64,000 nt of DNA from Alitta virens. Taxonomy: Eukaryota > Annelida > Polychaeta > Phyllodocida > Nereididae. Below are positions 6,886 through 48,404 of the stretch, in pieces. The notes below the pieces were generated by a model that was given only the letters and a program-made list of their open reading frames with translations, did not search any database and was not told where the DNA came from. Both the position numbers and the translations under genes were made by a program. The stretch lies in contig OW028584.1 of NCBI GenBank assembly GCA_932294295.1, forward strand, positions 35,597,969 to 35,661,968. The letters are read 5' to 3'. Each line of letters opens with the position of its first letter. Within the stretch, counting starts at the first letter, position 1.

Positions 6886-8220
6886 CGGAGCCCCTAAGAG
6901 GACATGGCAGAAAAAAAATTAAATTTTCCCGTGCGCACGAGTTAATGTAAGAAAAAAATATTTTTTTCCCATGCGCACGACTTAATTTACGAAAAATATA
7001 TGTTTTTCCCGTGCGCACGAGTTAATTTAAGAAAAATATATATTTTTCCCGTGCGTATGAGTTAATTTATGAAAAAAATATTTTCCCTGTGCACAAAAGT
7101 TAATTTACGAAAAAAAAAAAATTTCCCTGTGCGAAAAGTTTATTAACTCGTGCGCACGAAAAACATTTGGTGCGCACGAGAAACATATGGTGCGCACAAG
7201 AAACATTTGGTGCGCACGAGAAACATTTTGTGTGCACAAATTCTATCTGGATAGTTCTGCATTTGTGCACAAGTCAAAAATGCTGTTCCTTGCAATGAAA
7301 AATAGTCCCTGCAGTAAACTGCAATGAACAAATCAATCAATCAATCACACATATGGTATATCAATAATCAATCAATCAATCACACATGTAGATGTTATAT
7401 CAATTGATCAATCAATACCCATCTATCTATTTACCCATTTATATCTATCTGTCTGTCTAGCTGTCCCGCTGTTTGTCTGTCTGTCTATCAAGACTCAAGA
7501 ATACTTTATTTTGACCATATATTTACATACATAAATCTATCTGATGTTACAACTATATAAACTCTGTCTATTTATCTATCTATCTATCTATTCATCTATG
7601 TGTGTATGCTTGTTTATCAAAGATGTTTGTATATGTGACTATATGTATATAAATGATTATTGAATTTACAGAGCAAAAGTACAAATACATGTACATATAC
7701 AAGATTGCCATCTTTTGGTAGAACATGTAATTTCATGTGCTTAGTTGAAAACCCCATCTTTCTTGCACTTTTAGTTGCTGAAACAATACATTTTTGCAAT
7801 CAAGATATTCTAATGAACTTTCTGACATATGTCCTAATTGGCTGGGGTCACTGAGTGCACTTCACTACAGAGTGCTCGGCCATTGAATGGAACAGCATTT
7901 TTAAATCCTAGTAAAACAAAAACTATTAGGCCTAGATAAACGTTAATTATGTCGTGCGCACGACTTAATTATCTCGTGCGCACGACTTAATTATCTCGTG
8001 CGCACGACTTAATTAAACGGAAAACAATTTTTTGTACGCACCAAATGTTTCTCGTGCGCACGACTTAATTACTCGTAAATTTACTCATGCGCACGAGAAA
8101 AAAATATTTTTTTCGTAAATTAACTCGTGCTCACGGGAAAAAACAAAAAATTTTTCTTTAATTTACTGGTGCGCACGGGAAAATTTTATTTTTTTCTGCC
8201 ATGTCCTCTTAGGGGCTCCG
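6886..8220. mobile_element. 1.3 kb TA-flanked TIR element with palindromic subterminal arrays
   Basis: The left end CGGAGCCCCTAAGAGGACAT is repeated inverted and perfect at the right end, and both ends are flanked by TA (6884-6885 and 8221-8222). The inverted similarity extends well past 40 bp. Inward of each TIR are tandem units centred on the palindrome CGTGCGCACG, spaced 40 bp at the left (6931, 6971, 7011, 7051) and then about 20 bp (7155-7220), and about 22 bp on the right (7953-8010). The interior (about 7320-7900) holds (ATCA)n and (TCTA)n microsatellite and a decayed LINE-like tail near 7490-7560. No transposase is present, so the element is non-autonomous. Its termini resemble those of the 6 kb element at 42080. 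Confidence 0.75.
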
Positions 8221-9010: not shown

Positions 9011-9520
9011 AGAGAAATGTTGACTTGATAAGTTTTAGAAAGCTGTTACACACAGGCCTGCATTGTTTTATATTTTGTCTTATTTGTTGTTTCCTATTGT
9101 TTTAGTATTGTTTAAAGCCCCGGTCTCACATAGCCGGTTTTGCCGTAGTGAACCTGTAGTATTACATAACGGTTATGCAATAGCTTTTTTCGCCAGGTTG
9201 GCGACAGATTCTGGCGGCAAAAAGGAGTGTGGTATCACCCGATGTGTGACTCGCTGGGTTCTACGGGTAACCCCAGGGGTTCTACGGGTAACCCGCCGGC
9301 TTCCACGGGTGACTCGCCGGGTTACGGCCACTTAGTGGACAAATTCCAGGGATGACTCGGCGGCTTCCACGGGTGACTCGCCGAGTTCTATGAGTAACTC
9401 GACGGCTTCTACGAGTTACGCAACGGCTTCTACAGGTAACTCTAATTTTAAAATATAACGACGGGAAAGTCGGCGGGTTTAAAGTAGTAGCCGTCGGGTA
9501 TCCGTACAACACGTTGAGTG

Positions 9521-11206: not shown

Positions 11207-11634
11207 CTTTGTATTATTTTTTTGGTTCAGAAGTGCCGTAGTTGTTTCTTGTTCAGAAGTGCCGTATTTGTTTTTTTTTGGTTTAATAGTTTTCATATTT
11301 CTTTAGCAAACAAAGTTGCAATTAACTTAAGTGTGGTGTCAGGGTAAATAATTTTGAGCAAAGAAGACATAATCTTTTTGGTTCAGAACTGCCGTAGTTG
11401 TTGGTTGTTCAGAAGTGCCGTAGTTTTTTCTTGTTCAGAAGTGCCGTACTTTCGTCATTTTTATTATTTTCATGGCAGTATCCTAGAAAAAAATACGGCA
11501 GTTCTGAACCAAACAAAAAATACGGCACTTTTGAACAACTACGGCACTTCTGAACAAGAAACAACTACGGCAGTTCTGAACCAAACAAAAAATATGGCAC
11601 TTCTGAACAACCAACAACTACGGCACTTCTGATC
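11207..11634. repeat. Fold-back array of TTCAGAANTGCCGT units
   Basis: About twelve copies of a 14-base unit (TTCAGAAGTGCCGT or ...CTGCCGT). The first six are in plus orientation (about 11207, 11224, 11250, 11380, 11406, 11433) and the rest inverted (11494-11632). The centre of symmetry is near 11470 and the arms could form a hairpin of over 100 bp. The array occupies the place where the element's second gene would be expected. It may be a nested MITE or amplified transposase-binding sites. Confidence 0.7.
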
Positions 11635-12179
11635 AATCTTAATATACTGCCTGGATAGCGTACCCCGCTGTGATGACATAATAAACCCAATTTCGCATTG
11701 CATCACTAGCTCTAGAGCAAGGGTATTGGATCAACAGCCAGCGACACTGGGCAAACTCGACGGGTTACTTATGGAAGCCATCGAGTCACCCATAGAACCT
11801 GGCGAGTCACCCGTAGAACCCGTCGACTTTCCCGTAGAACTCCTGAACAAGCCGCCGGGTTTACTACGGGTAAAATTAGGCACGGATAATTCGACGGGTT
11901 CTACGGGTGACTCGCCGGGTTCTACGGGTAACCTGCCGGCTTCCAAGGGTAATCCGCCGACTTTTTGGACACCCGGGAGTTTGCCAAGGTGGCTCTTCCG
12001 GCTACCGGGCCCGAAACTCCCGGCTTGGCCACGGGTCCAGGAGTGACTAGACGGGTATTGCTGGGTATCCACGAGTAGCCGTCGGGTTGGAGCCGGGAAG
12101 CACGTTACGTCACCATTATGTAATACTACGGGTTCACTACGGGAAAACCGGCTATGTGAGACCGGGGCTTTAGTCACAT

Positions 12180-41068: not shown

Positions 41069-42077
41069 TAAATGTATCGATCCCATGATACTGGTTCCAA
41101 GAAACGAATGGAATGCTGATAACAGGTAATTTGACCTCAGAGAAACTAGAACTCTATTTTGATCAAGCATTTACCATGTGGGTGGGATTTGATTCTTGCT
41201 TAAGCGGTTCCATGCACAGACACAGAACACAGGGAATTACACATGCATTTGTCGCCTCTGGTATCTTTGGTTGATAATTTGTTAAGATTAGGCCTATATG
41301 ATAGATATATTTATAGGGATATTTATTTGATTTCCAAAAATCGTTGAATTTGATGGCGAACACTGCTAGTTCATCACACAATGGATTGTACATTAAAGAA
41401 ATACTATGTCATTCAAATTATACCTGATCCAAAATGGACTTTCACATTTCACCCCTGATCATCAGGCACCTGGTCATAGTTTCCTCATTTGCATAAGTGC
41501 AATTCATTTGCAATTGTAATTAATGACCATTGTTATCTCTCATGTGACTCTACCACTCGATCACTTCAAACTAACTGATCACTCGAGACAGGTGAGTTTT
41601 CTACAGCTCCTACAAAATTTCAGTTCTTTTAATTGTAGAGATGCATTATTGAAATGTGAATATATGTGGCTAATAATTATATTGCATATTTTATTTAACA
41701 CAAGACCAATCTACTATATTAGGATCCATAATTAATGTCCCAATTGTTTTTCTACCATATTTTTTTCATAAAAAGCTTGAAGCAGCATATAATGGACAGA
41801 CATAGTCAATCTCCTTTTCTAACTCATGAAAAACCCCCATTTGAAGTATAATTAATTTCAGGCTTAATTCCTATCATTGCTATGATGACGTTTTGTTATG
41901 GTCACAGAGAAGCAACAGAAATTGCAATGGATAATATAGTAAACTTTAAGGTATTTCTTTCCCAAAAGTGTTTCTATCAATTAGATACGAAAACAGGTGG
42001 ATATTTATTTTGAATCTCACCGTATATAGCTGCACTTGCAGGATACGTTTCACATTCTTTTTCAATTGAATATTTTG
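41068..42077. other. Gene-free stretch left of the 6 kb element
   Basis: AT-rich with no supported exon, repeat or RNA gene. Confidence 0.4.
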
Positions 42078-42115
42078 TACGGAAGCCATTTTAGGACATG
42101 AGAAAAAAAAATTTA

Positions 42116-42290
42116 AATTGTATAAACGATGTAGTAAATTGTATATACGAAATACTAAATCGTATATACGAAGTACTAAATCGTATATACGAAATACTAA
42201 ATCGTATATACGAAATACTAAATCGTATATACGGAATACTAAATCGTATATACGGAATACTAAATTGTATATACAAATTACTAAACTGGC
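42116..42290. repeat. 21-bp minisatellite, left array
   Basis: About eight units of ATACTAAATCGTATATACGAA, each centred on the palindrome CGTATATACG. Because 21 is a multiple of three it stays open on both strands, giving misleading heptad-repeat frames (NRIYEIL). It is not a gene. Confidence 0.85.
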
Positions 42291-42420
42291 CATATCTTAG
42301 TTAATATTTGGTCTACAGTGATGTGCAACCTATGTAGAGACTCGTCTTGGGCAGGGCTATCTCATAAACAAAGTTAGAAAATTCTAGATACAATTTGATC
42401 TGTGACAACATGTCCGTATA

Positions 42421-42931
42421 CCCAGCTCTTTCTATCAAGCCCCAGTCTTCCCTTCCCTTCTTAGTAGTATTTCCTGTAGTTGGGTTTACTATGTGATGCT
42501 GACTTTAATTGTACCATGCTACATTTGAATAATATCTTGATCCATGCTTATTGCATATTGTCAAATTGCATAAGTATTACATATAACCTGCAATTATAGA
42601 CCAAACATGGATGATATCAGGAAGGAGGACTTTAAAATAACTTTTCCCATCAATCTAGGAGGGATCCAAGACAGATAGATAGATAGAAAGATAGACAGGT
42701 GATAAATTAGATAGATAGATATGGGAAATGCAGCCCTCTAAGGCAAGTATTTGCCACTATCGAGGGTTGATTGATGAGATGAGAGGGAGGAGGAGTCCAC
42801 CCATGTTACACTCTTACCCCATCAAATAAAAGGGGAGGGGAGGGAAGGAAAGGGAAAGGGAAGGAAAGGGAAAGGAAAGGAAAGGGACAGGGAAGGAAAG
42901 GGAAGACTGGGGCCTGATAGAAAGAGCTGGG
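42421..42931. mobile_element. 511-bp inverted-repeat element with purine tract
   Basis: CCCAGCTCTTTCTATCAAGC at the left is inverted at the right (CCCAGCTCTTTCTATCAGGC, minus), TIR about 36 bp including AGTCTTCCCTTCC. The interior has a (GATA)n patch at 42675-42720 and an 80-bp polypurine run at 42830-42908. It is nested in the 6 kb element. Confidence 0.6.
42830..42908 (+). repeat. Polypurine (GGGAAA)n tract
   Basis: About 80 bp of nearly pure G/A (GGGGAGGGGAGGGAAGGAAA...), with mirror-like symmetry capable of triplex DNA. Confidence 0.75.
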
Positions 42932-42939
42932 TTTAAAGA

Positions 42940-43900
42940 CAAGGGTAACTAGAAAACTGAAACTGCTGAACAGTTTCGAGGCTTCACCTGCATTCTGATT
43001 TCAGAAAGTATAACTTGATGAAGAGAAATTAAGTGAAAGAATAAGCACTGTTTGCAAGGCATTAGATTTGTTGCAGTGGTAGGCTCAGCAAGCTACCATT
43101 GAGCAAGGGCCATCTTTAAAGACTTCGCTGCATGTCGGCCGCGATAGCAAAACCGCCACAGCAACCAAGACATCCCACAGGAATCGAGCTGACTTCCTGC
43201 CGCATGCGGCTTTTCAAACAGCATCAGAATCTGTGCGGTACAAGCAAAGAATGTATGTTCAAAGTGGGCAGCCTCGGCCAGACCGTTAACCTTCCGCTCA
43301 TTACAGACGCCTCTTTACACATGTTTATCACATGATGAAGATATGGATCTGCCCCTGAATTCAGTGCAATGCAATTTATGACATGACATTCAATGACGCA
43401 TTTCACCCCTGCTTGCCTGCTTGGTGCACACAATCGACAATCCAAATGACAATTTCATGAAATTCACATACTGCTTTGGCTAGTATTTTCTTGCAATATT
43501 AAAAAAAGGTTTGATGAAATTCACATACTCTTTGAGCAAAGTATTTTGATGACAGAATATCGGAGAGCCATTATGGCTATTGCGGTTGCAACAAAGAGAC
43601 TGAACAAAAAAAGGAATCCTAGCAGGAAGAGGACATTTCCAGGTAGAGTGTAGTGGCACTGAATCCAGAAGGGGGTAGTAGTGATGGTAAAAGACAATGT
43701 TAGAACAGTGGAGAATTAGAGTATACAATATGATTGTGGAATTGTGGAATGAGGAAATGGAGGCGGTAGTAGTTTTCTGAAAATTTTATTAAGTGAAATA
43801 CTGGTTTTGATCTATGCATTGGACAGATTTATAGTAATACAGTAAATGGTGATAAGGTAAAATGTAATCATTGGCACCGTATGGAAGTGGAGTATGTAAG
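42940..43900. other. Unassigned interior of the 6 kb element
   Basis: No supported gene. The patch 43075-43330 is GC-richer, with a 67-codon plus frame of no known family. ATGAAATTCACATACT recurs at 43457 and 43514. Confidence 0.35.
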
Positions 43901-43916
43901 ATATATATAGACTATC

Positions 43917-44218
43917 TACAGGAACAAAAATGAAATATATACAAATACAAAGAAATGCTGAATGTACCTATGGCTAGACTATTCTACGTGAAGAGAAATA
44001 TAATAATATACAAAACAAATAAAAGGAAATGCTGAATGTAGCTTAATATGTTGTAGTATTTAAATGGATGTATAGACTATTCTACATGAAAAAAAAATAT
44101 AAGAATCACTAATATAAGGAAATGCTGAGTGTAGCTCGATATGTTTTGGTATTTGAATATATGTATATGGACTATTCTACATGAGCAAAAATATGAGAAT
44201 TACAAATACATGTAAATG
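43917..44218. repeat. Three tandem copies of a 95-110 bp unit
   Basis: Each unit includes AAGGAAATGCTGA(A/G)TGTAGCT, an ATATGTT.T.GTATTT segment and GACTATTCTAC(A/G)TGA. Copies start near 43950, 44020 and 44115. Located downstream (3') of the OB-fold gene. Confidence 0.65.
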
Positions 44219-44618
44219 GATGAGAACATTGATAAAGTAAAGGAATGTATATAAAAATGTAAAAGTAACTACACATATTTACAATGAAAAAAAGTGAATA
44301 GAGTAACAAAATGATGCAGATAGATGGTATGTGTACATTATGGAATGGATGATAGTAATAAGCACAGTTAGTATAGCTAGAGCATGTAAAGTAGCTAGTA
44401 ATGTACATAGAAATATGGGAAAAGCAGTAACTACTAAATAAAGGTAACGAAGTGAATAAAAAGGCCGTAATGGTTATACAATAGTGTACAATAGTGTACA
44501 AAGTCTACGCAAAAACTACAGAAATGAACATAGGAAAGTTTAGAAATACTAAGAGACTGATAGGGGTAGTATATACTAGGGGTAGCACAAAAGCAATATA
44601 AACAGTGAGTTTATTCAC

Positions 44619-46053
44619 TCAAAGCGAGTGGGAAAAGAAGTGTAAATCCTGAGGCAAGGCAATTGCGAGTTTATCAGGCAAGTCAGTGACGGCAATGTCG
44701 AGGTGGTTGGCCAGAAGGGCACATTCCACTTTGAATTCATCACCATCGTCATTCATGAGGGTGACAGTCAGGTCTTCGCACATGTAATCTGAAAAGGTGT
44801 CGATTACCTCTTTTTCAGGTGGCGTCGTGATCTGGAAATAGGTAAAGGAATGTTGATAATGATAAAATGAATGGTATAATGGCAGAGATTTGGTTGTGCA
44901 GTGAAGATATCATAGGGGATGTTACAGTAGGGTTCAAAAAGTATACTTACAGTAATCTGCGTGAACCGTGTAGTTGACAGCGTGATGTCATTTTGAAAAG
45001 TTTTGGGAATGGTATGTGATATTTTCACATAATATCCCATGGTTATGGTTGAGTTGGCGTGTTCACGCCATAAGGCTACACTGATGCGGCCCGTGGTATC
45101 TGAAATTGTAATATTTCTGATTGGGATGGGTCGATCGGAGCCTGCAGTGTTTACTGTTCGAGGAGCCTCATCCTGAAGAAAACAGAATCAGAGCAATTGA
45201 AATTGAGGGCAAAGAGTAACAACATAGATTGAGTTTTGGTGATGGGAGATTGATACAATGCGGAATACATAAAATGGCATAAGTAGATTACCAAGTAGGG
45301 TAAAAGTCAGTTGTATGGGAACGATATGTAGCAATGGAAAGTGTAAATAGATATAAATGATACGGACAAGTTATATATGTAGTAATGGATGTAGAGAATA
45401 GCATAAATGAGAATATAGACTAATTGTTAAGCAGGGTATAGAGACAAGCGATACAAATGCATAACAAATAAAAAGGGCAATGGTATAGATGCAAGATATT
45501 ATTGTAAGTACGTGGCTGATGCGAGTCATAACAAAAGTGGCCAGTAGAAATGTTCTTATGTATGCATGAGGAAAATGCATTTGCAATGATGTACATTTTT
45601 AACATCTAGATGGTAAAAGTAGACATTTACCTGTGCTATGGTACCTTCAACAATTTTCAGCGAGCTGCTGGGTGAGGCTTTGATTGCTTGGATGGAAAGA
45701 ATTTCACTGGGAGGGTTTATAATTGCCTCCGCCAGTTGTTCAGCAGTGTTGCTGACAGCAATGTGCATGGCACTGTCCAGGAGTTTTGCCGTGTGTTTCA
45801 AAACTAGTGTTGAACCACTGACACTGTAGATTTTGGCTGTCAAGGTCACGCCCTTCTTGACCCTTATGATATGATTGTCATATATAGTGGCTTTAATGGC
45901 AGCGTCACCTGCAACAATGCCAGCGGTGATGATGTGCTGTTTTTGGCCATTGCTATTTGTGAATTCACGCTGGTCTGATATAGATATAACTCTGAAGCGT
46001 AGAGGCTTTTGGAAGTTTGCGCCGCGCGCAAAAATTGATGTCAAGGTGGCCAT
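44619..46053 (-). CDS. RPA1-like OB-fold protein (three exons, complete)
   Basis: Exons (minus): 46053-45631, 45172-44951 and 44831-44619, joined at CAG|GTAAAT and ACT|GTAAGT donors, all phase 0, giving 285 residues. The first exon (MATLTSIFARGANFQKPLRFRV...) resembles an RPA-type OB fold: RVISISDQREF..SNGQKQHII, then IKATIYDNHI and GVTLTAKIYSVSGSTLVL. Exon 2 looks like a second OB fold (IPIRNITISDTTGRISVALW). These folds bind single-stranded DNA. Length is far below the roughly 600 residues of true RPA1, and no zinc-finger domain is seen. AATAAA (minus, 44615-44610) lies only a few bases past the stop. The gene lies inside the long-TIR element, so it is either cargo or a captured host gene. 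Confidence 0.75.
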
Positions 46054-46228
46054 CTGGAACAGGAAGCAAACAGAAAATTAATGTATGGTACAGTACTAGT
46101 GCATTGTATAATGGATGAGCAGCAAGACAGGAAAATGAAAAACTCAAACAACTGGTAGGGGTCAATGTGATGGTTGGGAATTGACAAGGTGTAGTCACTG
46201 AGATGTTTAAATGAGAGACATAGAGGCT

Positions 46229-46412
46229 GTTATGAATGATTGATACGGCAAATATGAGGCCTAATGTAAAATTATATATTTAAGACACATTTCTCATATG
46301 TCTTATATACTTTTAAAATGGCAATAAAAGGTAATCAGATGTCAAGCGATAGATTTTGCACTCATTATAAAACTCAGTTATAAACAAGGGAAAGGAAATA
46401 CGGCAAACAACA
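46229..46412. repeat. 185-bp direct repeat, copy 1
   Basis: GTTATGAATGATTGATACGG ... GGAAATACGGCAAACAACA is repeated at 47115-47299 in the same orientation with about 93 percent identity by eye. Copy 1 lies 175 bp upstream of the OB-fold gene start. Confidence 0.75.
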
Positions 46413-47114
46413 CTTTTTGTTTCTTCCAGTTTTTACAATTATGATGGAAAATAAAGAGTGAAAAGTTATTAGAAGTACTTTAATTTACATAATTTCACAG
46501 CAATATTTCATACATGTAGGTATCACAGAATCACAGCTGTCGTGCCTTGAAGAAATTTTAGAATAGGTCTAAAATGGTGGAGGCGTAATTGCCTAATTGA
46601 ATAATCAGATTGATAATAATTCTGATTATTTGAGACAATGAAACCTCAATGAGGTACAATTACAGTATTTTTGATTGACATCAAATCTATAAGTTTCTTG
46701 GTTTGCCTGCATTAAATGAATAATATTTGAAGACCCAAGTCATTTTTAAGATTGTTGGAATTTGAAACAAATTCTAAAAGTGTCTGAATAATGCTTGGTG
46801 TGGCTGTATATACATTTAAGTGTTCATAAATATATGGATGTCATTGTATAATATGAGATACTAGGAAGGGAGAAACGCTATTTATTTGGCAATATTTTTC
46901 AGACCTTCAATTGCAAATAAACATACACTGAACTTTAAATATAATTTAGACCTGCTAAAGAGATGTGACTGTAACATAAAAGACTTTTCAAATTATCAGA
47001 ATTAAGTTTTCCCCCACAAACTTAATGTTAACAATAAAATTGATAAAATTTTAATACGTCAGTGTCGAAAATACCTGCGCTGTTGATAATACCCTCTGTT
47101 ATGGTAACTGTTTT

Positions 47115-47299
47115 GTTATGAATGATTGATATGGCAAATATCAGGCCTTATGTAAAATTATATATTTAAGACACATTTCTCATATGTTTTATATACTTAC
47201 AATATGGCAATAAAAGGTAATTTGATGTCAAGCGATAGATATTGCACTCATTATAAAACTCAATTATGAACAAGGGAAAGGAAATACGGCAAACAACAT
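47115..47299. repeat. 185-bp direct repeat, copy 2
   Basis: Same content as 46229-46412 (CAAATATCAGGCCTTATGTA, AAGACACATTTCTCATATGT). The 700 bp between copies has no recognised feature. Confidence 0.75.
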
Positions 47300-47459
47300 A
47301 ATTAGGATGTCATATTGTGAAACAAAGTTATTCCCTTTGAGTGCTGTTGTGCTGTACCTAGAATTTTCCAGTATAGAGTATTAAATAGCACTGTCCAAGT
47401 CGAGTCTTAGATAGGTCACACATAATTGTAGACCAAATATTAACAAAGATATGGCCGGA

Positions 47460-48066
47460 TTAGTAATTTGTTTAACACTATAGTAATTCGTTTAAACGAT
47501 TAAGTATTCCATTTATACAATTTAGTATTTCGTTTATACAATTTAGTATTTCGTATATTCAATTTAGTATATTGTATATTCAATTTAGTATTTCGTATAT
47601 ACGATTTAGTACATCGTATATTCAATTTAGTATTTCGTATATTCAATTTAGTATTTCGTATATACGATTTAGTATATTGTATATTCAATTTAGTACTTTG
47701 TATATACAATTTAGTATTTCACATATTTAGTATTTCGTTTATACAATTTAGTATTTCGTATGTTCAGTTTAGTATATTGTATATTCAATTTAGTATATTG
47801 TATATTCAATTTAGTATTTCGTATATTCAATTTAGTATATTGTATATTCAATTTAGTATTTCGTATATATACGATTTAGTATATCGTATATTCAATTTAG
47901 TATTTCATATATTATTCAATTTAGTATATTGTATATTCAATTTAGTATATTGTATATTCAATTTAGTATTTCGTATATTCAATATAGTATATCGTATATT
48001 CAATTTAGTATTTCATATATACGATTTAGTACTTCGTATATACAATTTACTAAATCGTTTATACAA
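47460..48066. repeat. 21-bp minisatellite, right array (inverted)
   Basis: About 28 units of TTTAGTATTTCGTATATTCAA with variants (ATTGTATATTC, CGTATATACG). It is the reverse complement of the left array and several times longer. One ATTATTC and one missing half-unit break the period. Confidence 0.85.
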
Positions 48067-48404
48067 TTAAATTTTTTTTTTCTCATGTCCTAAAATGGCT
48101 TCCGTAATTTTGTACAGTTCGTAAAGAGTTTTTTTCACTAGCAACTCTGCAAAAATTGCTTCACTAACCAGGCCACATTTTATCTATATGAATTTACTAT
48201 AGATCTATATTTTATATATGTTCCTTGAAATACCTACTCTTTCTATAAATCAGTGTTTTAAATTTGTTTTAGCATTTTCTTAAACTCACTTCTGTTCCTA
48301 TTCGAGATAATGGGCACTAATAGGTGGTTAAGTATGCCTTTGTAATGAAAATTTTTTATAATTTCATTTTCAGTTGATTCCAAGAGTCTATATCCAGTGT
48401 AGCA

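Follow-up and report, generated by a model that had tools for sequence, protein, structure and literature searches.

Transposons of the IS3EU superfamily have TA..TA ends and usually make 6-bp target-site duplications (PMC10045372, PMC12730594), and the ends of one IS3EU set read TAYGG..CCRTA (PMC12730594). For Helitrons, an end palindrome and a CTAG joined to T are given in the background of PMC4067079, and Helraiser has a 19-bp palindrome 11 nt from its end, with CTAG joined to T (PMC4778049). RPA genes occur in Helentrons, which carry RepHel, an apurinic/apyrimidinic (AP) endonuclease and RPA (PMC4067079), and in the rice Mothra mother element, an RPA-bearing Helitron without RepHel that is graded as "semi-autonomous" (PMC4683698). 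In this context, we discuss a 64,000-nucleotide stretch of the polychaete Alitta virens (GenBank assembly GCA_932294295.1, contig OW028584.1, positions 35,597,969 to 35,661,968 of the forward strand), hereafter the window, in which a probable RPA/SSB-like OB-fold gene lies between long inverted arms filled with 21-bp minisatellites. An initial annotation had described this arrangement as one giant transposon of 6 kb. The data discussed below make it very probable that the window instead holds two known kinds of mobile element, a Helitron-type element nested inside an IS3EU-like one, and not one new kind.

The outer element and its uninterrupted copies

The outer element extends from 42078 to 48106 and is split into a left part (42078–42948, plus strand), which starts with TACGGAAGCC at 42078, and a right part (47302–48106, plus strand), which ends with GGCTTCCGTA at 48106. 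Its termini are thus TACGG...CCGTA, and both ends read inward as TACGGAAGCCATTTTAGGACATGA. As the initial annotation had noted, the ends are inverted: the terminal inverted repeat (TIR) arms 42078–42271 and 47913–48106 are 194 nt long and 88% complementary, the 21-bp arrays at 42114–42285 and 47481–48068 lie in inverted orientation, and a non-array block is inverted as well, with approximately 42143–42392 matching 47353–47600 at 83% (the window copy is L029 in our series). A perfect 6-bp duplication, ATTTTG, flanks the element at 42072–42077 and 48107–48112; random pairs of 6-mers within the window agreed in 94 of 200,000 draws. Because this single duplication is shared, both arms belong to one insertion. 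The alternative raised with the annotation, two short elements on either side of a host gene, is excluded on the same ground, and the gene region is moreover repeated elsewhere with the same 3′ end. The flanking TA, which had been taken for a target duplication, is the element's own terminal TA; a mariner-like TA duplication was rejected because the TA is the end of the TIR and the duplication is 6 bp long.

Searching the first 221 bp of the element against its own genome (671 Mb, 23 contigs) gave 635 first-look candidates, and 40 of these were scored. Twenty stretches were fetched from the best-scoring places, 19 with two ends and one with a single end (L020). The 19 other two-ended copies span 1046–4600 bp. 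Their 6-bp duplication is exact in 11, has one mismatch in three (L011, L021, and L028) and is absent in five (L009, L016, L019, L022, and L027, the last a head-to-tail cluster). End variants are few among the other copies, for example CCGTT at one end in L012 and CTGTA in L011.

In 18 of these 19 copies the match to 42078–42948 joins the match to 47302 onward directly. The uninterrupted site reads GGGTAATTAGG in 16 copies and GGGTAATAAGG in two, while in one (L014) a small deletion covers it. None of the 19 carries the gene region or the insert; the check proposed with the annotation, whether the OB-fold gene recurs inside paired ends, was run in this search and came out negative. Therefore, 42949–47298 (4.35 kb, minus strand) was inserted into a pre-existing short element, and, since the insert is absent from all 19 other copies, the OB-fold gene is not cargo of the outer element. 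What had been described as the two ends of one 6-kb unit is right insofar as the arms result from one transposition event; the gene, however, sits in a separate insert. In the window the junctions read GGGTAA, then the insert (CTAG ... ACAACA), then TAATTAGG, placing the insertion at GGGTAA|TTAGG of the outer element. The insert is flanked by TAA at each end (42946–42948 and 47299–47301), a repetition that is either a 3-bp duplication or chance.

By its ends alone, the outer element would fit a short IS3EU-like cut-and-paste transposon that is apparently non-autonomous, since non-autonomous members of the IS3EU superfamily (with GingerRoot) have the same TA..TA ends, here TACGG..CCGTA, and 6-bp duplications. 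Unlike IS3EU elements as known, the window copy is without a visible transposase and 21-bp minisatellites fill its TIRs. Foldback-like elements such as Tetris and Galileo have the same long and internally repetitive TIRs; they differ in that the ends and the duplication length of the outer element point to IS3EU.

A separate observation concerns L027 (C2:7056000–7065900; C numbers denote contigs), which is a tandem cluster of the short outer element. Three right ends of the family lie there head to tail, 1409 bp apart, with CTACGGAAGA after each.

The 3′ end of the insert

Read on the minus strand, the insert ends with GAAACTGTTCAGCAGTTTC-AGTTTT-CTAG, followed by TT. The CTAG terminus occupies 42949–42952, and the 19-nt terminator-like hairpin GAAACTGTTCAGCAGTTTC (42959–42977, minus strand; 7-bp stem, 5-nt loop) lies 10 nt from the 3′ end, with a 6-nt spacer between hairpin and CTAG. 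Its predicted fold has a free energy of –5.7 kcal/mol (z –2.44), and 3 of 200 shuffled sequences folded equally well. The initial annotation had reported no inner termini; the hairpin and CTAG at 42949 constitute one, and the uninterrupted copies mark the same position.

When the genome was searched with this 3′ end, 514 candidates came up at first look, and 40 of them were scored and listed. All of the 14 further ends fetched from these 40 have the hairpin and CTAG|TT; their flanks are of 13 different kinds, those of L062 and L064 being the same. The gene copies on C2 at 43.35 Mb and 50.22 Mb also have a near-identical CTAG hairpin end, again in other surroundings. The insert thus has the CTRR-type 3′ end of Helitrons and the palindrome of 16–20 nt about 11 nt from that end. 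Helitrons insert between A and T without a duplication; here, T is on the 3′ side in all 14 ends and the site is GGGTAA|TTAGG, yet TAA is repeated on the other side. Helraiser/Helibat has the same 19-nt palindrome near CTAG, 11 nt from the end compared with 10 nt here, and the same junction with T (PMC4778049); the insert differs from it in having an RPA-like gene and in being without a 5′ TC end. Assignment of the insert to PIF/Harbinger, on the basis of TAA at both sides, was rejected because the ends are not inverted repeats by eye and the CTAG hairpin 3′ end is found in many other places.

In L068 (C1:39995.6 kb), the 3′ flank shows TTAGGCTTCACCTACTTCCGTAGGTGAAGAC directly after the Helitron-type 3′ end. 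This motif is similar to the inverse form of GGTGAAGCC, which is subterminal in the element itself, and might be a self-insertion or a 5′-end motif.

The RPA/SSB-like gene and its relatives

The spliced OB-fold gene that the annotation had placed between the arms is indeed a three-exon frame on the minus strand with consensus splice sites. Exon 1 covers 46053–45631, exon 2, which gives the best OB-fold match, 45172–44951, and exon 3, with the stop codon, 44831–44619. The product, of 285 aa, is likely, but not firmly, RPA/SSB-like and is predicted to bind single-stranded DNA. Searches of protein databases with the OB protein, and with a neighboring LRR-like frame, returned nothing at E 0.001. 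The ratio of nonsynonymous to synonymous divergence (dN/dS) is 0.13 between the window copy and the C2:43.35 Mb copy and 0.15 between the window copy and the C2:50.22 Mb copy, with a range of 0.09–0.47 over ten pairs. These values are not taken as proof of present function, because the introns diverge about as much as dN (0.039) and the gene is broken in all five of the other copies examined.

Relatives of the gene turned up at approximately eight further loci when the genome was searched at the DNA and protein levels, and the identity at two of these is no more than 45–48%. At C6:8811–8816 kb, frames matching Helitron_like_N (E 2.3e-11) and PIF1 (E 5.1e-21), both broken by stops or shifts, lie ahead of the gene in the same orientation. 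At C2:6360 kb the gene follows the tail of a helicase, with matches to PIF1 structures (E 4e-7) and to the Helraiser chain (E 0.002). In the C6 relative, a frame with endonuclease-like motifs by eye lies between the helicase and the gene; approximately 41 bp from the end of this frame are retained in the insert (46187–46227, minus strand, aligned to C6:8815 kb), together with the gene and the 3′ end. Parts of the insert's segment upstream of the gene recur in the copies at C2:43.35 Mb and C2:50.22 Mb, the former of which also retains a helicase-like piece farther upstream. These shared upstream segments suggest joint movement of a derivative with the RPA-like gene only, and the window insert is such a derivative, Helitron-type and without RepHel.

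RepHel itself is present in relatives, both as the broken C6 frames and as unbroken frames upstream of four 3′ ends of the insert's kind. Among 81 candidates in the genome there are 75 matches to Helitron_like_N, many in long unbroken frames. Within the 40 scored of the 514 candidate 3′ ends, five (on C5, C1, C12, C7, and C3) score near-equally and directly below the gene-bearing copies. Four of the five (not C5) have a stop-free RepHel frame of 2132–2378 aa on the same strand, with the Rep domain starting 11.7 kb upstream. The 3′ end of these RepHel elements is 92% identical to that of the insert over approximately 395 bp, and 1.4-kb internal samples of the C5, C12, and C7 elements are 99.4–99.9% identical to one another. 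As judged from these sequences, the RepHel elements that share the insert's 3′ end look like a recently active family. Short samples of the large, near-identical C12 and C7 elements, taken at increasing distance from the 3′ end, agree in all 40 bases at 12.5 kb and are not alignable at 13.5, 15.5, and 17 kb, with a shared repeat at 14.5 kb.

A close parallel is the Mothra mother element, which likewise ends in CTAG, has a 3′ hairpin and tandem repeats, carries an RPA-like gene but no RepHel, and has RepHel-bearing relatives in its genome (PMC4683698). Unlike this element of rice, the insert is without a natural 5′ TC end and its OB protein is weakly similar to RPA. With Helentrons, the relatives in A. 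virens share the order RepHel, possible endonuclease and RPA-like protein, as well as TT after the 3′ end (PMC4067079); unlike Helentrons, the insert has a canonical CTAG/hairpin 3′ end. The locus adds an RPA-like-bearing, RepHel-less Helitron-type element from an animal genome, one in which long RepHel frames without breaks occur as well.

Two further observations relate to the RepHel copies. Several groups of near-equal copies have RepHel frames of more than 2000 aa without stops (C12:62978, C7:292654, C3:55908701, C1:51012981, and others); these large elements, at least 12.5 kb in the two sampled, are possibly active and Helitron-type. Upstream of the RepHel/RPA-like copy on C6, a 447-aa open frame (L044 3–1343; C6:8806502–8807842) matches DNA_pol_B_2 (E 4.9e-17), possibly a Polinton- or virus-like neighbor.

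The order of events and the 5′ end of the insert

The observed nesting, the two kinds of signature end, the common 3′ terminus and the relatives linked to RepHel would be accounted for by two steps. In the first, an IS3EU-type transposon with TACGG..CCGTA ends and minisatellite TIRs would have inserted into ATTTTG and generated the 6-bp duplication, the DDE transposase presumably being supplied in trans. Later, an RPA-like-gene-bearing, RepHel-less derivative of Helitron type would have inserted at GGGTAA|TTAGG inside it. Its rolling-circle movement may have stopped at the hairpin, with RepHel supplied in trans, and the RPA-like protein may bind single-stranded DNA.

Several findings weigh against this reading. 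The insert starts at its 5′ end with TGTTG or TTATGTTG and has no TC, the 5′ end expected of a Helitron. Its 5′ boundary lies inside a repeat unit that continues upstream in all 13 of the other copies read (from 41 first-look candidates; in L057 the continuation is approximately 25 bp only), and TAA is present at both flanks. The OB-fold matches that a five-row profile gives for the gene are weak (archaeal SSB, E 6e-5; RPA2, E 0.014; RPA70, E 0.3), its Pfam matches are below the cut-off, and the AlphaFold model of exon 1 is uninformative (pLDDT 32). No RPA-like gene was detected near the four unbroken-RepHel elements at E 0.01, and the direct autonomous partner of the insert was not found among the RepHel elements examined. 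The window copy of the outer element shows no transposase, and no search for one with these TIRs was made.

The boundary at 47298 is no natural 5′ terminus. A direct repeat of 185 bp (94%) begins and ends a 1.07-kb segment upstream of the gene, its inner copy at 46228–46412 and its outer copy at 47114–47298 (both minus strand), the latter ending at the insert boundary. The repeat was considered as a natural 5′ terminus and rejected, as it runs on upstream in all 13 other copies read. Two accounts of how such an end arose, both compatible with nesting, can be weighed. In one, the insert is a Helentron with a C-terminal AP endonuclease, and endonuclease-primed, 5′-truncating insertion produced a short TAA duplication and an arbitrary 5′ end. 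The position of the 5′ end inside a repeat unit, TAA on both sides and TT after CTAG in all 14 ends agree with this route, and Helentrons carry RPA genes and favor T-rich targets (PMC4067079). The frame behind the helicase of the relatives has endonuclease-like motifs by eye; however, it has no Pfam match, and among solved structures its top matches, to endonucleases of LINE-1 type, reach no better than E 0.25. Moreover, a CTAG terminus with a hairpin at a distance of 10 nt is what canonical Helitrons have, and a 3-bp match may be chance (1 in 64 with even bases). The three extra bases fit target-primed truncation, but a single case proves nothing, and we regard this route as unlikely. The other account, in which a longer Helitron inserted and later lost its 5′ part by deletion, so that the present insert is what remains of its 3′ part, strikes us as equally doubtful: it agrees with a 5′ boundary that is not a natural terminus, but no base is missing on the host side, and a later deletion would have left the three extra bases (TAA) by chance.

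The weakest account, a single 6-kb non-autonomous transposon whose TIRs moved the OB-fold gene as true cargo, has in its favor the one 6-bp duplication around the whole 6 kb, yet it is highly improbable and is refuted by the uninterrupted sites, which lie exactly at the insert ends in 18 of the 19 gene-free copies, while the CTAG hairpin also terminates the gene copies at C2:43.35 Mb and C2:50.22 Mb, where the flanks are different, and the TIR motif (up to four mismatches) was not found in L030–L040, the other gene copies with 1.5-kb flanks. The proposal of a giant element flanked by TA, with RPA as its cargo and a recombinase of unknown kind, is thereby withdrawn, as the duplications are 6 bp, the ends are of IS3EU type and the 19 other copies are 1.0–4.6 kb long without the gene. 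What is retained of it is that one apparently non-autonomous element has two long TIRs with minisatellites, and that the RPA-like gene is of a type found in rolling-circle transposons. The claim of a new giant-transposon class is thus removed, and the case illustrates that nesting can mimic cargo.

Exon and intron divergence of the gene

Nesting of a Helitron-type insert in an IS3EU-like element leaves a feature of the gene itself to be discussed. Five copies (the window copy, L030, L031, L032, and L034) were compared in ten pairs; the copies are related and the pairs are not independent. Between the window copy and the C2:43.35 Mb copy, exons differ at 77/855 positions (9.0%), introns at 17/577 (2.9%) and four-fold sites at 29/126 (23%; four-fold versus intron, Fisher p 1.6e-12). 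The corresponding comparison with the C2:50.22 Mb copy gives 23/120 four-fold and 16/517 intron differences (p 9e-9). Over the ten pairs the ratio of four-fold to intron differences ranges from 2.5 to 7.9, with little effect in the C2:50.22/C6:22.1 Mb pair (8/121 versus 13/506, p 0.04). Divergence of the 3′ flank is intermediate (97/1527). Changes unique to the window copy are few (7 synonymous and 7 not, versus 4/498 intron sites), and most unique changes are in the C2:43.35 Mb copy (25 synonymous and 12 not, versus 8/498 intron sites).

One explanation would be an RNA-level process acting on the spliced message, either replacement of exons from the cDNA of other copies or selection for synonymous changes by which the element escapes small-RNA silencing. 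Divergence rises in a sharp step at the start of exon 2, where 10/50 bases differ compared with one in the preceding 58. There is no sharp step elsewhere, with 1/50 in the first 50 bases of exon 1 and 0/50 in those of exon 3. One RepHel pair shows no excess of differences at third positions, neither in the helicase (14/190 versus 8/189 and 8/190) nor in the endonuclease-like frame (6/142 versus 12 and 9). Since the step is sharp at a single splice boundary and the RepHel pair shows no effect, the RNA-level explanation is weakened, and we give it little credence. Decay of CpG alone is unlikely for the window and C2:43.35 Mb pair, because 12 of its 29 four-fold changes are transitions; for the C2:50.22 Mb copy the figure is 16 of 23. 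More mundane readings are that the introns are constrained, or that an old functional divergence of the exons is combined with homogenized introns. If it held in more copies, the difference between exons and introns would offer a way to study how selection or conversion acts on transposons at the RNA level.

Other structures in the window

Two further regions of the window have inverted repeat arrays. At 9252–9442 and 11782–11959 there are two arrays of 21-bp units, and the consensus of one (CGCCGGGTTCTACGGGTAACC) is for the most part the reverse complement of the other (CGACTCACCCGTAGAACCCGG). Inverted 26-bp arrays lie between them (11381–11448 and 11534–11636), and together these may be another element with minisatellite TIRs. 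At 6913–7237 and 7943–8196, tandem arrays have a common palindromic core, GTGCGCAC, with their longer units inverted, forming another foldback-like structure.

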